Part shown: one piece after another, positions 45,430 through 48,755 of the stretch
Layout of the letters: each line of letters opens with the position of its first letter
Numbering within the stretch: the stretch's first letter is position 1
Assembly (NCBI RefSeq): GCF_900163635.1
Contig: NZ_FUID01000058.1
Coordinates: forward strand, 1-64,000
Reading direction: 5' to 3'
DNA length: 64,000 nt
Origin: Leucobacter sp. 7(1)
Lineage (GTDB): Bacteria > Actinomycetota > Actinomycetes > Actinomycetales > Microbacteriaceae
The notes under the pieces: model-generated
What the model was told of the DNA's origin: nothing
The model's input: the letters and a program-made list of their open reading frames with translations, nothing else
The model's database searches: none
Translations under genes and position numbers: made by a program

Positions 45430-45512
45430 TAAAGTGATCCCTGGTGCGTCGGGAAGTCTGGTCGACATTGACGCCGACCGTATCCGGTTGGCAGTTGCGA
45501 CCGGAGGACACC
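45430..45512 (+). promoter_or_regulatory. promoter and structured 5' leader 1, shared with nhaA
   Basis: TAAAGT (45430-45435) is followed after exactly 10 nt by a 24-nt block (45446-45469) that recurs identically before nhaA. GTCG/CGAC within the block can close a hairpin around GGGAAGTCTGGT. GGTCG (45460-45464) can instead pair with a downstream CGACC. A third hairpin, CCGGT (45484-45488) with ACCGG (45500-45504), would occlude the GGAGG ribosome site (45503-45507). The arrangement looks like a cis-regulatory RNA. Confidence 0.55.
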
Positions 45513-45614
45513 ATGCTTCACATTTTGATCGTGCAGGGCGCGAGTATCCGATTACTTGGCCAGTTCTCGCTGCCTTGTTGTGCAGGTTCTTCAAGCGGCG
45601 AGCCGCGACAGTGA
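45513..45614 (+). CDS. 33-codon upstream ORF coupled to the glycosyltransferase
   Basis: ATG at 45513 has a very strong Shine-Dalgarno (CCGGAGG, 5 nt away). The peptide begins MLHILIVQGASIRLLGQ and ends in a Ser/Gly tail. Its TGA overlaps a GTG (GTGA) that opens the glycosyltransferase frame, so ribosomes could be handed on. It may be a leader peptide controlling downstream translation or a decayed gene. No family is recognised. Confidence 0.5.
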   Translation: MLHILIVQGASIRLLGQFSLPCCAGSSSGEPRQ

Positions 45615-46852
45615 TCGGGCGGCGAGTCCTGGACTCGCAGTTGCGGGTGCTGTTGCTAACGGCTGGTAGCCGTGGTGACGTTGAACCGTTCGTGTCGCTC
45701 GCGTCTGCTCTGCGAGGGGCCGGGCATGCTGTCCGAATATGCGTGCCAGACGACCCGGACGCTGAGTACGGCCCTGATCATGTCAGCCTTGGGGTGAGCT
45801 TTTCTGCCCTCGCCCTCGCTGTTTCTGAGGTCGGAGCGATGCGTGCCTATCGCGAGCACATTGTTCCGGCGATGAGCAAGATCCTGAGTCGCGTGGTGGA
45901 CGAGGCGACCGCATGGCAGCCCGATGTGATCGTTTCTCACCCCAAGTTGCTCACTGTGCCGATCGTGGCAGAGCGTCTTCGCATTCCGTACCTCACGGTC
46001 GAGTTGGCACCGGTGCTGACAGCCACAGCCGAGTTTCCTGCTGCTGGCGTCCTTCGCCGCTCGTACGGACCGGTCCTCAACCGGCTGAGCTACCGTATCC
46101 CTGCCTTAGGTGAACGCATGTTCGCCACTGATATCCGTGCCGCTCGGCAACGCCTCGGGTTTGCCCGCTCTCAGCGGGTATCACCGTCTGCGGGATCGCT
46201 TATCGCGGTGAGCCCATCTCTACTGGCTCGTCCCCTGGACTGGCCCGCAAAAGCCAATATGACTGGCGACTGGCCACGCCAACCTCATCCGGGTGAAGTC
46301 TTGGACGCCGAGGTTTCGGAGTTCCTGTCCGCTCCTGCGCCGTTCGCATACGCCGGGTTCGGGTCGATGCGGGGTGGCGACCCCGCATCGCGGGCGGAAG
46401 CGATCATCGAGGGGGCGCGGAAAGCAGGATTACGGGTACTGCTTGCAACTGGGTGGGGTGGTCTTGAGCCGCCTCGGCGATGTGTTGGGCGAGATCTCTT
46501 GACCGTGTCGTCGGTTCCACACCACCTGGTGCTGCCGGAAGCGTCGGTCGCGATTCATCACGGCGGCGCGGGAACTGTCCACGCAGCATCACGGGCAGGG
46601 ACGCCGTCGGTTCTCGTTCCCTTTCTCGGCGACCAACCCTTTTGGGCGAGGACGCTGCAACGGTCCGGTCTTACCGGCAAGCCCTTACACCGAGATCGTC
46701 TCTCTTCGCAGAACGTTCGTGCGGCGATCGCGGACGCCGTTGGCCGTCAGACCGCCGTGCATAGTGTCGCGGAGCGGATGTGGACAGAGGACGGGCTTGG
46801 CGTTGCGGTCGCCGAAATCGTGCGAGTTGCGGTAGGCGGCACGCGGAGGTGA
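45611..46852 (+). CDS. GT1-family glycosyltransferase
   Basis: The 413-residue GT-B enzyme resembles macrolide/sterol UDP-glycosyltransferases. The N-domain starts LRVLLLTAGSRGDVEPFVSL, and the C-domain has the nucleotide-sugar motif VAIHHGGAGTVHAASRAGTP, followed by PFLGDQPFWA. The start is uncertain: GTG at 45611 overlaps the upstream ORF, while TTG at 45641 sits right at the first strand. The G+C content looks lower than in neighbouring genes. It might inactivate an antibiotic or modify a lipid; the acceptor is unknown. Confidence 0.82.
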   Translation: MIGRRVLDSQLRVLLLTAGSRGDVEPFVSLASALRGAGHAVRICVPDDPDAEYGPDHVSLGVSFSALALAVSEVGAMRAYREHIVPAMSKILSRVVDEATAWQPDVIVSHPKLLTVPIVAERLRIPYLTVELAPVLTATAEFPAAGVLRRSYGPVLNRLSYRIPALGERMFATDIRAARQRLGFARSQRVSPSAGSLIAVSPSLLARPLDWPAKANMTGDWPRQPHPGEVLDAEVSEFLSAPAPFAYAGFGSMRGGDPASRAEAIIEGARKAGLRVLLATGWGGLEPPRRCVGRDLLTVSSVPHHLVLPEASVAIHHGGAGTVHAASRAGTPSVLVPFLGDQPFWARTLQRSGLTGKPLHRDRLSSQNVRAAIADAVGRQTAVHSVAERMWTEDGLGVAVAEIVRVAVGGTRR

Positions 46853-47331
46853 CTGGGACTGTCGTTTTCTTGGGCGACCCGCTTCATATTTCGGCGCCAT
46901 GCGCGACGCGAGAAGTGGAAAATCCCCGCACCCTCGTGTGGGTGTGCGATCTGCGCACTACCGGCGACAAGCGGTCAGCCCGCAAGCGACTGAAGCAAGC
47001 AACCGCAGCGATGTTCGATGTGTGCCGGGTTCGCCGGACGGTACGCCATTTACTGGTGGCGTACACAGTCCAGTCATCCTGCTCGGCGAGCATCGACCAT
47101 GTGGCGTGGACGCTAGCGACACGGCTGCACGCGCAGCTTGAGCTCCGGAGTGGACGAGATATCGATGTCGTGTTCGTGAACATCTCCAACCTCGACGATC
47201 AGAAGCTGCTGTCCGACAGAGCAGTTGAATGGTCTTCGCAGCTCGAGGGCCTCGCTGGAGCTGCTGTTCTTGACTGGGGCGACATCAGGAACGAGAGCAT
47301 TCGTCGAGCCGCGAACCGGGCATATCTATAA
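46849..47331 (+). CDS. unknown protein partnered with the glycosyltransferase
   Basis: The 160-residue product starts at GTG overlapping the glycosyltransferase stop (GTGA). It has a strand-rich core (NPRTLVWVCDLRTTGDKRS, VRHLLVAYTVQSSCSA, DIDVVFVNISNLDD). Basic residues are frequent (SARKRLKQATAAMFD). I recognise no family. Strict coupling to the glycosyltransferase suggests a shared role. Confidence 0.65.
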   Translation: MTGTVVFLGDPLHISAPCATREVENPRTLVWVCDLRTTGDKRSARKRLKQATAAMFDVCRVRRTVRHLLVAYTVQSSCSASIDHVAWTLATRLHAQLELRSGRDIDVVFVNISNLDDQKLLSDRAVEWSSQLEGLAGAAVLDWGDIRNESIRRAANRAYL

Positions 47332-47341
47332 CGCCGCACAG

Positions 47342-47414
47342 TAGAATAGGGATTGGCGCGTCGGGAAGTCTGGTCGACATTTCACTGTTTGTCGACTCCT
47401 GATCGGATCTGCCT
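47342..47414 (+). promoter_or_regulatory. promoter and structured 5' leader 2, nhaA
   Basis: TAGAAT (47342-47347) is followed after 10 nt by the same 24-nt block as leader 1 (47358-47381). GTCGAC occurs twice (47373-47378 and 47391-47396) and the copies can pair with each other, in competition with the GTCG/CGAC hairpin inside the block. The leader ends at the nhaA ATG without a strong Shine-Dalgarno sequence. Sequences outside the block and -10 box are unrelated to leader 1. Confidence 0.55.
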
Positions 47415-48755
47415 ATGACTTCTCGTCCTGCCCACCCCACGCCTCGGCGTTCGCTGTTCCCGAACCGAGGCTCCTATGCCGAAGCCGTGCGCATCGGAGC
47501 CTTGCTCCGCAAGGAAACCGTGGGCGGTGTGCTGCTCGTGGTCTTCGCTGTCGTCGGCATCGTGTGGGCGAACTCGCCCTGGGCAGAGGGCTACTTCGCG
47601 TTGCGGGACTTCGAGATCGGGTACGAGCCTTGGCATCTGAAGCTCAGCCTTGGCGCATGGGCGGCCGACGGACTGCTCGCAATCTTCTTCTTCCTCGTCG
47701 GCCTCGAACTCAAACGAGAGTTCGTCGCCGGAGACCTCCGCCGATTCTCCACCGCGATCGTCCCGGTCGCTGCTGCCGCCGGTGGCGTCGTCGTGCCCGC
47801 ACTCGTCTATGTCGCGATCGTGGCACAGAGCCCGGAGTTGCTGCGCGGTTGGGCGATCCCGACCGCAACAGATATCGCGTTCGCTGTCGCCGTTCTCGCC
47901 CTCATCGGCTCACACCTGCCCAGTCCGCTGCGCATCTTCCTCCTCACCCTCGCCGTGGTCGACGACCTCATCGCGATCACGATCATCGCGGTGTTCTACA
48001 CCGACAGCATCCAGATCGTCCCGCTGCTGCTGGGCCTGCTCGTCATTGCCGTCTATGCGGTCCTCGCCCAGCGGTACCGGCAGTTCTTCCACCTCAAGCC
48101 CGCCGCAGCCTGGCTCGTCCTCCTGCCCATCGGCGTAATCGCTTGGGCATTCGTGCACGCCTCCGGCATTCACGCAACGATCGCGGGTGTCCTCCTCGGA
48201 TTCACCATTCCCGTCCTTCACCGTCGCCGCGACCACACACCAGACACCGAACCTGGCCTCGCAGAGGTCTTCGAGCATCGGTTCCGTCCCCTCTCGGCGG
48301 GGGTCGCGGTCCCCGTCTTCGCGTTCTTCTCCGCAGGCGTCGCCCTCGGTGGTGTCGATGGTTTCCTCTCCGCGCTCGCCGATCCCGTCACGATCGGGAT
48401 CGTGGTCGCACTCGTGGCCGGAAAACCTGTGGGCATTGTCGCCGTCACCTGGCTCACCACCCGAATCCGGGGCATCAACCTCGACCCCGCCCTGAAATGG
48501 GTAGACCTCATCGGGGTCGGACTCCTCGCCGGAATCGGGTTCACCGTCTCGCTGCTCGTTACCGAGCTCAGCTTCTCCGCCACCGACCCGCACCACGACC
48601 ACGCGAAAGTCGCGATCCTTCTCGCCTCCGTACTCGCGGCTCTCATCGCATCGATCCTGCTGAGCACCCGCAACCGTCGCTACCGCCGCATCGCGCAGGA
48701 AGACGCCATCGACGAAGACGGCGACGGGATCCCGGACGTGTACCAGCAGCGGTAG
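47415..48755 (+). CDS. nhaA: Na+/H+ antiporter NhaA
   Basis: The 446-residue protein has about 12 membrane helices. NhaA hallmarks include [18 protein letters not shown], the [14 protein letters not shown] segment and [15 protein letters not shown] with the paired Asp residues that bind Na+, and [13 protein letters not shown]. The C-terminus adds a short acidic tail ([14 protein letters not shown]). It exports Na+ or Li+ for protons. On the ICE it is cargo under its own leader. Confidence 0.94.

Follow-up and report, generated by a model that had tools for sequence, protein, structure and literature searches.

A compact element at the predicted 5' end of cation-transporter mRNAs in Actinomycetota, a candidate alkali-cation riboswitch

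Selective sensing of Na+ is known for few RNAs or proteins. The riboswitches Li+-I, Li+-II and Na+-I control overlapping genes, which they turn on with their ion (PMC9646797, PMC9337991), Na+-II has been presented as a rare nhaA-I variant (PMC9646797), and before Na+-I only one bacterial protein had been shown to sense Na+ selectively, according to PMC9337991. Here we analyse a stretch of 64,000 nucleotides (nt) of Leucobacter sp. 7(1) (contig NZ_FUID01000058.1, positions 1 to 64,000; hereafter the window), in which a 24-nt block stands in the leader of a glycosyltransferase operon and again in the leader of the Na+/H+ antiporter gene nhaA. We consider it probable that a compact cis-regulatory RNA on cation-transporter mRNAs of the Actinomycetota has its core in this block, and that it is most likely the aptamer of an undescribed class of alkali-cation riboswitch with Na+ as the first candidate. 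The host group of the element, the actinobacteria, includes antibiotic producers and soil dwellers.

An earlier note on this DNA had reported that positions 45446-45469 and 47358-47381 are identical over 24 nt and that each block lies 10 nt past a TANNNT box, and both observations were borne out by the sequence. By our own estimate about 7e-6 identical pairs of this length are expected by chance in 64 kb. In both copies the block starts at the tenth position past the last base of the box (TAAAGT and TAGAAT, respectively). The extent of the repeated unit had to be corrected, as the conserved element begins 3 bases upstream of the block with GG(T/C) at 45443 and 47355, which the note had omitted because the third base differs (T versus C). 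The element is 25 nt long, GGNGHGYCGGGAAGNCUGGUCGRCR, with the block as its core. A separate contig contains a third copy, just as perfect, ahead of a second nhaA gene (C68:4141-4161). The own genome contains exactly three copies when 21 bases are searched on both strands with up to 3 mismatches, and a backwards control pattern gave 0 matches. Together the three copies head two nhaA genes and an operon of a small open reading frame (ORF), a glycosyltransferase and an unknown protein. Further sites were searched with R1, a 27-position covariance model built from 65 distinct site sequences and used at E <=0.01, where the weakest matches may be chance. The leader features of the window are as follows, with their basis in brackets; P1 is the hairpin of the element, and MFE stands for the predicted minimum free energy fold.

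45431..45436, + strand: -10 box TAAAGT of leader 1 (TANNNT spacing across sites)
45443..45467, + strand: leader element copy 1, GGTGC GTCGGGAAGTCTGGTCGACA, predicted mRNA 5' end (R1, E 4.1e-9)
45447..45451, + strand: 5' strand of P1 in copy 1, CGTCG, pairing with 45463-45467 (covariation on the NhaA tree)
45463..45467, + strand: 3' strand of P1 in copy 1, CGACA (covariation on the NhaA tree)
45498..45507, + strand: competing strand CGACC with the adjoining GGAGG; 45498-45505 pair with UCUGGUCG at 45457-45464 (MFE, strand enrichment)
47343..47348, + strand: -10 box TAGAAT of leader 2 (TANNNT spacing)
47355..47379, + strand: leader element copy 2, GGCGC GTCGGGAAGTCTGGTCGACA (R1, E 7.1e-9)
47391..47396, + strand: competing strand GTCGAC, pairing with GTCGAC of the element at 47373-47378 (MFE of leader 2, strand enrichment)

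The element is widespread. Within the genus the core was found with up to 2 mismatches in 48 of 54 genomes (72 sites), and the backwards pattern gave 1 match. R1 matched 173 of 297 genomes of the order and 112 of 396 genomes of the phylum; one genome of the phylum search has nine copies. An exact-pattern scan of bacterial and archaeal contigs returned at least 117 stretches, all listed with actinobacterial names (names as read, without taxonomy look-up), and in viral contigs the degenerate pattern had 0 exact matches. Among plasmid records a similarity search found 18, of which 13 are actinobacterial; all ten actinobacterial records examined match R1 (E up to 3.2e-9). Outside the phylum no full match was seen in the two of five non-actinobacterial plasmid matches examined, a barely informative test: one contains a partial R1 match (28.7 bits, model positions 7-25), the other no match. 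Conversely, when NhaA was taken as the starting point in the order, the element lay within 22 of 30 loci (best NhaA match of each, for 30 of the 48 genomes having one; distances not individually checked). The earlier note had staked its proposal beforehand on conservation of the block beyond this locus, and the block is indeed kept across the phylum.

The genes behind the element point to ion transport. The site collection comprises 267 sites in 269 loci, for which downstream genes were clustered by BLAST and one representative of each cluster was scanned, 20 with Pfam and 10 with NCBIfam. The largest clusters are NhaA (187 sites), NhaP-type CPA1 with TrkA_C (18) and MrpA (14), followed by a family of 160 amino acids (aa) discussed below (5), TrkH (4), CitMHS/ArsB/NhaD-like proteins (4) and DrrA-type ABC proteins (4). 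Glycosyltransferase, STAS, CBS, Crp-like, P-type ATPase and unassigned genes occur at two sites each. The remainder consists of 5 sites without an ORF and 14 singletons, among them H+-pyrophosphatase, an Na/Ca exchanger, NfeD, a third CBS protein, an alpha/beta hydrolase and four sites judged to be chance. In total, 231 of the 267 sites precede genes of cation-transport type (NhaA, NhaP-type, mrpA, trkH, CitMHS/ArsB/NhaD-like, P-type ATPase, Na/Ca exchanger and H+-pyrophosphatase). These tallies are not a random sample, because we chose the phylum loci ourselves, taking multi-copy genomes first. The 95 sites that come from the phylum search and our choice (loci L154-L183 and L210-L269) include 47 NhaA, 12 MrpA and 10 NhaP-type genes. 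The gene behind each site was picked by a script, whose choice of ORF is wrong at some loci; leader 1 of the window, for example, was given a TTG instead of the ATG at 45513. Five weak sites judged to be chance (L061m3696, L100p4247, L107m6289, L143m6828 and L269m551) are kept within the 267 and were dropped from the leader-length bins used below.

On the ten plasmid records nhaA stands directly behind the element in 3 (Arthrobacter, Glutamicibacter and Streptomyces F8), a hydrolase followed by nhaA in 1 (Rhodococcus), an Na+/H+ antiporter in 1 (Streptomyces), a STAS gene in 2 and a hydrolase in 1 (Pseudonocardia), while nothing is annotated behind it in 2. In one of the STAS records the annotated start of the coding sequence overlaps the element. 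STAS-domain genes were thus observed behind the element on two Streptomyces plasmids, and in one further genome as well, a hint that a salt leader is linked to anti-sigma-factor antagonists. An alpha/beta hydrolase gene follows the element at three loci (L271 2501-4876, L277 and L241), with nhaA next in line on the Rhodococcus plasmid pRWAY01.

The position of the element relative to the promoter is nearly fixed. For this comparison 262 sites were used, i.e., the 267 minus 5 without GG at -5/-4 (numbering below) or too near a locus end. In 208 of them a TANNNT box lies at offsets -19 to -16 relative to the hairpin's first G, compared to 2 of 262 in the mirror-strand control, and TAnnnT is the -10 hexamer given for S. 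lividans in PMC8079986. This fixed spacing would place the GG at or next to the transcription start, and the element would make up the first 25 nt of the mRNA. An ORF of at least 250 aa starts within 160 nt on the motif strand at 215 of the 262 sites and on the opposite strand at 59. Several nhaA leaders in large genomes (L182, L183, L211 and L214) show no TANNNT at the usual place and have ACCCTCA just before the GG, perhaps the -10 sequence of another sigma factor.

Positions of the element are numbered from the first G of the original GTCG, taken as 0. Drawn from the 262, 209 sites with less than 60% identity outside the block form a non-redundant set, with the consensus G-5 G-4 N G-2 H-1 G0 Y1 C2 G3, loop GGAAGNCUGGU, C15 G16 R17 C18 R19. 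The hairpin has five pairs (-1 to 3 with 15 to 19), of which the outermost is a wobble (U.G or C.A), and its 11-nt loop GGAAGNCUGGU is nearly invariant, although the invariance is overstated because the sites were gathered by patterns and R1 and filtered for GG. GG at -5/-4 is present in all 209 sites of this pre-filtered set and G at -2 in 207. The variable columns are -3, -1, 1, 9, 17 and 19.

Four of these six variable columns form two pairs that covary. In the genus C1...G17 replaces U1...A17 in 30 of 72 sites, and no site is changed on one side only. On an NhaA tree of 181 proteins (187 nhaA sites, less 1 duplicate and 5 whose proteins are shorter than 200 aa) columns 1 and 17 underwent 15 and 16 changes, 15 of them on the same branch. 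For columns -1 and 19 the numbers are 53 and 37, with 30 on the same branch: 16 from U.G to C.A, 8 from C.A to U.G, 5 from U.G to A.A and 1 from A.G to C.A. The mutual information of 0.946 for pair 1/17 and 0.654 for pair -1/19 was in each case reached by 0 of 1000 simulations with independent change on the tree, whereas for two of three control pairs, (-3,19) and (-3,-1), the observed value was reached by 510 and 102 of 1000. Already in the 143 sites gathered before R1 was built, pair -1/19 ranked first in mutual information among all pairs of columns between -8 and 44 (UG 69, CA 47). Pair 0/18 is mostly G-C, with a compensated A-U in one member of the genus and U-A in two sites of the non-redundant set. 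U.G and C.A are isosteric wobbles. In the 181 NhaA leaders the outer pair is UG in 95 and CA in 58 cases and Watson-Crick in 7 (UA 5, CG 2), so that the wobble geometry at -1/19 appears to be under selection. This switching between wobbles argues for an RNA and against a dimeric DNA site.

Downstream of the element the leaders often contain a strand that competes for the 3' arm of the hairpin. In 178 of 262 leaders strands complementary to this arm bind with a better energy than in dinucleotide shuffles, and the same analysis of reversed sequences showed no enrichment. Complements to positions 12-18 occur downstream in 54 of the 209 non-redundant leaders, compared to 18.0 in shuffles, and complements to loop pieces only are not enriched in the same set. 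In leader 1 the competitor consists of CGACC and the first three bases of GGAGG at 45503-45507, and a hairpin over the ribosome site, as the earlier note had described for this leader, is present in the predicted MFE fold. The hairpin of GTCG with CGAC and its CGAC-containing competitor further downstream, both proposed there from two sequences, are supported by the covariation and by the enrichment of competing strands. Perfect complements to the 5' part GGNGHG are slightly more frequent than expected (61 versus 48.6 in 209 leaders). That the 5' GGNG pairs with the leader further downstream was considered and rejected, as there is no energy gain over shuffles (t -0.7 for 262 and -0.2 for 209 sites). 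An H-type pseudoknot between the loop GGU and a downstream ACC is not favoured either: complements to CUGGU number 86 versus 80.6 expected, whereas those that reach into the 3' arm number 54 versus 18.0.

Taken together, a conserved structured RNA with covarying pairs is found in the 5' leaders of related genes, which is one trait of a riboswitch. The suggestion that one cis-acting RNA is common to the glycosyltransferase operon and the antiporter gene is supported by the spread of the element, the genes behind it, the covariation and the enriched competing strand. To the more specific reading, a phylum-wide riboswitch for Na+, or for Na+ and pH, that would be one of the smallest aptamers in nature (about 25 nt at the extreme 5' end of the mRNA, with a favoured wobble pair and a salt regulon), we give an even chance. 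The salt regulon would comprise NhaA, Mrp, NhaP-type, Trk, P-type ATPase, pyrophosphatase, the 160-aa family and the glycosyltransferase of the window. By default, the 3' strand of the hairpin would pair with the downstream competitor beside or over the ribosome-binding site and dampen expression. At high ion concentration the ion would stabilize the fold of hairpin and loop, the competitor would be freed and the transporter made, i.e., the hairpin would be the on state. In the window, nhaA and the operon of small ORF, glycosyltransferase and unknown protein would then be coupled to one salt signal. As to the ligand, the gene set points to alkali cations; our guess is Na+ first, then Li+, pH or another osmotic signal.

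Several results weigh against a cation riboswitch. Over 185 leaders the energy model gives a mean probability of 0.79 for the competitor and 0.004 for the hairpin, i.e., the nearest-neighbour model almost never forms the hairpin alone, and its stability must therefore come from tertiary contacts or a bound factor. Judged by energy alone, the preference for the competitor fits a hairpin that needs a ligand or factor and equally fits a weak or wrong hairpin. When the hairpin was forced in these leaders, the Shine-Dalgarno sequence became more open in 36, less open in 63 and stayed the same in 86. By another measure of openness, leaders of 22-44 nt showed 8 more and 0 less open (n=13, one of which, leader 1 of the window, was given a wrong start codon by the script), and the bins of longer leaders gave 10 more and 6 less of 49, 16 and 12 of 83, 14 and 15 of 67, and 2 and 7 of 31. 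The hairpin thus had no uniform effect on how open the Shine-Dalgarno sequence is, either over the 185 leaders or across the length bins. Also, the third control pair, (-1,20), which is outside the model, lies above all 1000 simulations with a mutual information of 0.175. A standard pair counter, applied to the alignment of 65 sequences, detected nothing beyond chance: its value for standard pairs was reached in 486 of 500 shuffles and its covariation score in 475 of 500, because it treats C.A as unpaired. Finally, some targets have no obvious ion link (STAS, CBS, Crp-like, ABC, NfeD, glycosyltransferase), and a protein-mediated stress response would explain these, too.

Columns -1 and 20 (45447/45468 and 47359/47380 in the window) are associated: U at -1 goes with a purine at 20 in 65 of 76 cases and C at -1 with a pyrimidine in 34 of 48.

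The alternative that survives best is an RNA switch that responds to another osmotic or pH signal (protons, K+, a second messenger or a compatible solute) instead of Na+, a possibility to be taken seriously that we nevertheless think unlikely. C.A pairs can be protonated, which would suit a pH sensor; but U.G needs no proton and is commoner than C.A at -1/19 (95 versus 58 of 181), and therefore this pair is no universal pH sensor. K+ is suggested by TrkH and by the NhaP-type antiporters, which are nearest to K+/H+ antiporter models, whereas NhaA, MrpA and NhaD-like genes point first to Na+ and Li+. In S. coelicolor the salt-induced cation/H+ antiporter gene SCO3602 is read by its authors as serving K+ uptake (PMC13011467).

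Alternatively, the element could be a structured RNA operator, with the invariant loop bound by an actinobacterial RNA-binding regulator of cation-transporter mRNAs. The short stem that is weak in energy models, the nearly invariant loop and a broad regulon with STAS, CBS and Crp-like genes would all fit such a site. However, the enriched strand that competes with the 3' arm is more typical of a switch, the target genes centre on one ion chemistry, and no candidate protein was found, none having been searched for. We therefore hold this explanation to be improbable.

The fixed distance from the -10 box and the inverted repeats formed by the arms would also be expected of a DNA-level operator for a repressor dimer, or of an initially transcribed sequence acting on RNA polymerase. 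Yet pair -1/19 switches from U.G to C.A and avoids Watson-Crick combinations, so that the outer positions are U.G or C.A in 153 of 181 NhaA leaders and the half-sites are unequal, contrary to dimer symmetry. In addition, the loop is asymmetric and the element has a single orientation relative to the promoter box, and we regard an action on the DNA level as very improbable. That the element is where a trans-acting small RNA pairs, an idea for which the long invariant stretch at the mRNA 5' end might speak, deserves hardly any credence, as the stem covaries rather than being frozen and the own genome holds just the three leader copies under the search given above (shorter or gapped antisense partners were not searched).

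Two further readings of the block were rejected. An ORF through it was checked by eye: GTG frames differ between GGTGC and GGCGT leaders, GGCGC leaders contain none, and the variable columns show no triplet period. A repeat or mobile element was dismissed because the likeness is confined to the 25-nt element in 209 sites that are less than 60% identical outside it.

The genes behind the two leaders of the window are listed below.

45513..45614, + strand: small ORF of 33 aa behind GGAGG, its TGA overlapping the GTG of the glycosyltransferase (ORF reading; 34-aa counterpart in Microbacterium ihumii)
45611..46852, + strand: glycosyltransferase (EryCIII-like_C / Glyco_transf_28), GTG start (domain matches)
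46849..47331, + strand: 160-aa protein, GTG start at 46849, with relatives directly behind the same leader and divergent from trkH (homology, linkage)
47415..48755, + strand: nhaA, Na+/H+ antiporter (PF06965, E 1.4e-128; TIGR00773 above cut-off)

As each start overlaps the preceding stop, the small ORF, the glycosyltransferase and the 160-aa protein are probably translationally coupled. Microbacterium ihumii shows the same gene order with both leader copies and has its 34-aa ORF in the same place. These ORFs of 33-34 aa, with their own GGAG and the stop/start overlap, have little sequence likeness between the two genera and could encode a leader peptide. The glycosyltransferase is distantly like the rifamycin-inactivating Rgt and macrolide glycosyltransferases, all far below the family cut-offs.

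The earlier note had called the two sets of genes unrelated, but they have more in common than it recognized. In relatives, homologues of the operon's third protein form a family encoded behind this leader and divergently from trkH. The third protein shares 26% identity (E 9e-8) with a family member encoded directly behind the leader, and in the genus 12 of its 17 relatives outside the own genome start just past a copy of the element. No match was obtained for the family in Pfam (two members) or NCBIfam (one member). Its genes either follow the glycosyltransferase or, as seen in several genomes, are divergent from trkH and flanked by a leader on both sides. This 160-aa family and the operon of the glycosyltransferase are new candidate members of the salt response. 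If the riboswitch reading is true, an ion aptamer of about 25 nt would be small enough for a direct structural study of how RNA discriminates alkali ions.

Concerning known RNA classes, the window contains one tRNA and nothing else above the Rfam gathering score, and twenty related loci gave only tRNAs. Up to E 10 each leader of the window has one weak match far below gathering score: Chloroflexi-1 with 14.2 bits (gathering 80) and isrJ, on the opposite strand, with 13.3 bits (gathering 37). In Creative Commons-licensed articles of PubMed Central we found neither the element sequence nor a described RNA sensor for actinobacterial salt transporters, and no nhaA leader RNA of actinobacteria was named in the search listings. 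Novelty is claimed only with respect to Rfam 15 and the open literature searched. The ydaO/yuaA riboswitch (RF00379) is linked to osmotic stress and has no gathering-score match in the window. This c-di-AMP switch is also found in actinobacteria and is listed for S. lividans, where the targets given are cell-wall hydrolases and thus differ from those described here (PMC8079986). The Na+-I riboswitch (DUF1646 motif, RF03071) has a similar regulon of Na+ transport and occasional K+, Mg2+ and energy-coupling genes, as summarized in PMC9337991, but its model has no match in the genome up to E 10. Li+-II (nhaA-II, RF03038) likewise stands most often before nhaA (PMC9646797); it differs in its 84-position model, which reaches at best 21.6 bits compared to a threshold of 70.4, with 4 sub-threshold matches, none of them at the leaders. 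Li+-I (nhaA-I, RF03057) is also a small cis-acting RNA before nhaA and related cation-transporter genes (PMC9646797). Its 55-position model, the one through which Na+-II was compared as well, gives nothing above cut-off in the genome: the best score, 16.1 bits (gathering 37), is on other contigs, and none of the 7 sub-threshold matches up to E 10 lies at any of the three leaders. The association with nhaA, a trait of Li+-I, is found at 187 of the 267 sites, whereas the element described here differs from Li+-I in its architecture, being a single hairpin, with a loop of 11 nt, placed at the predicted transcript 5' end.

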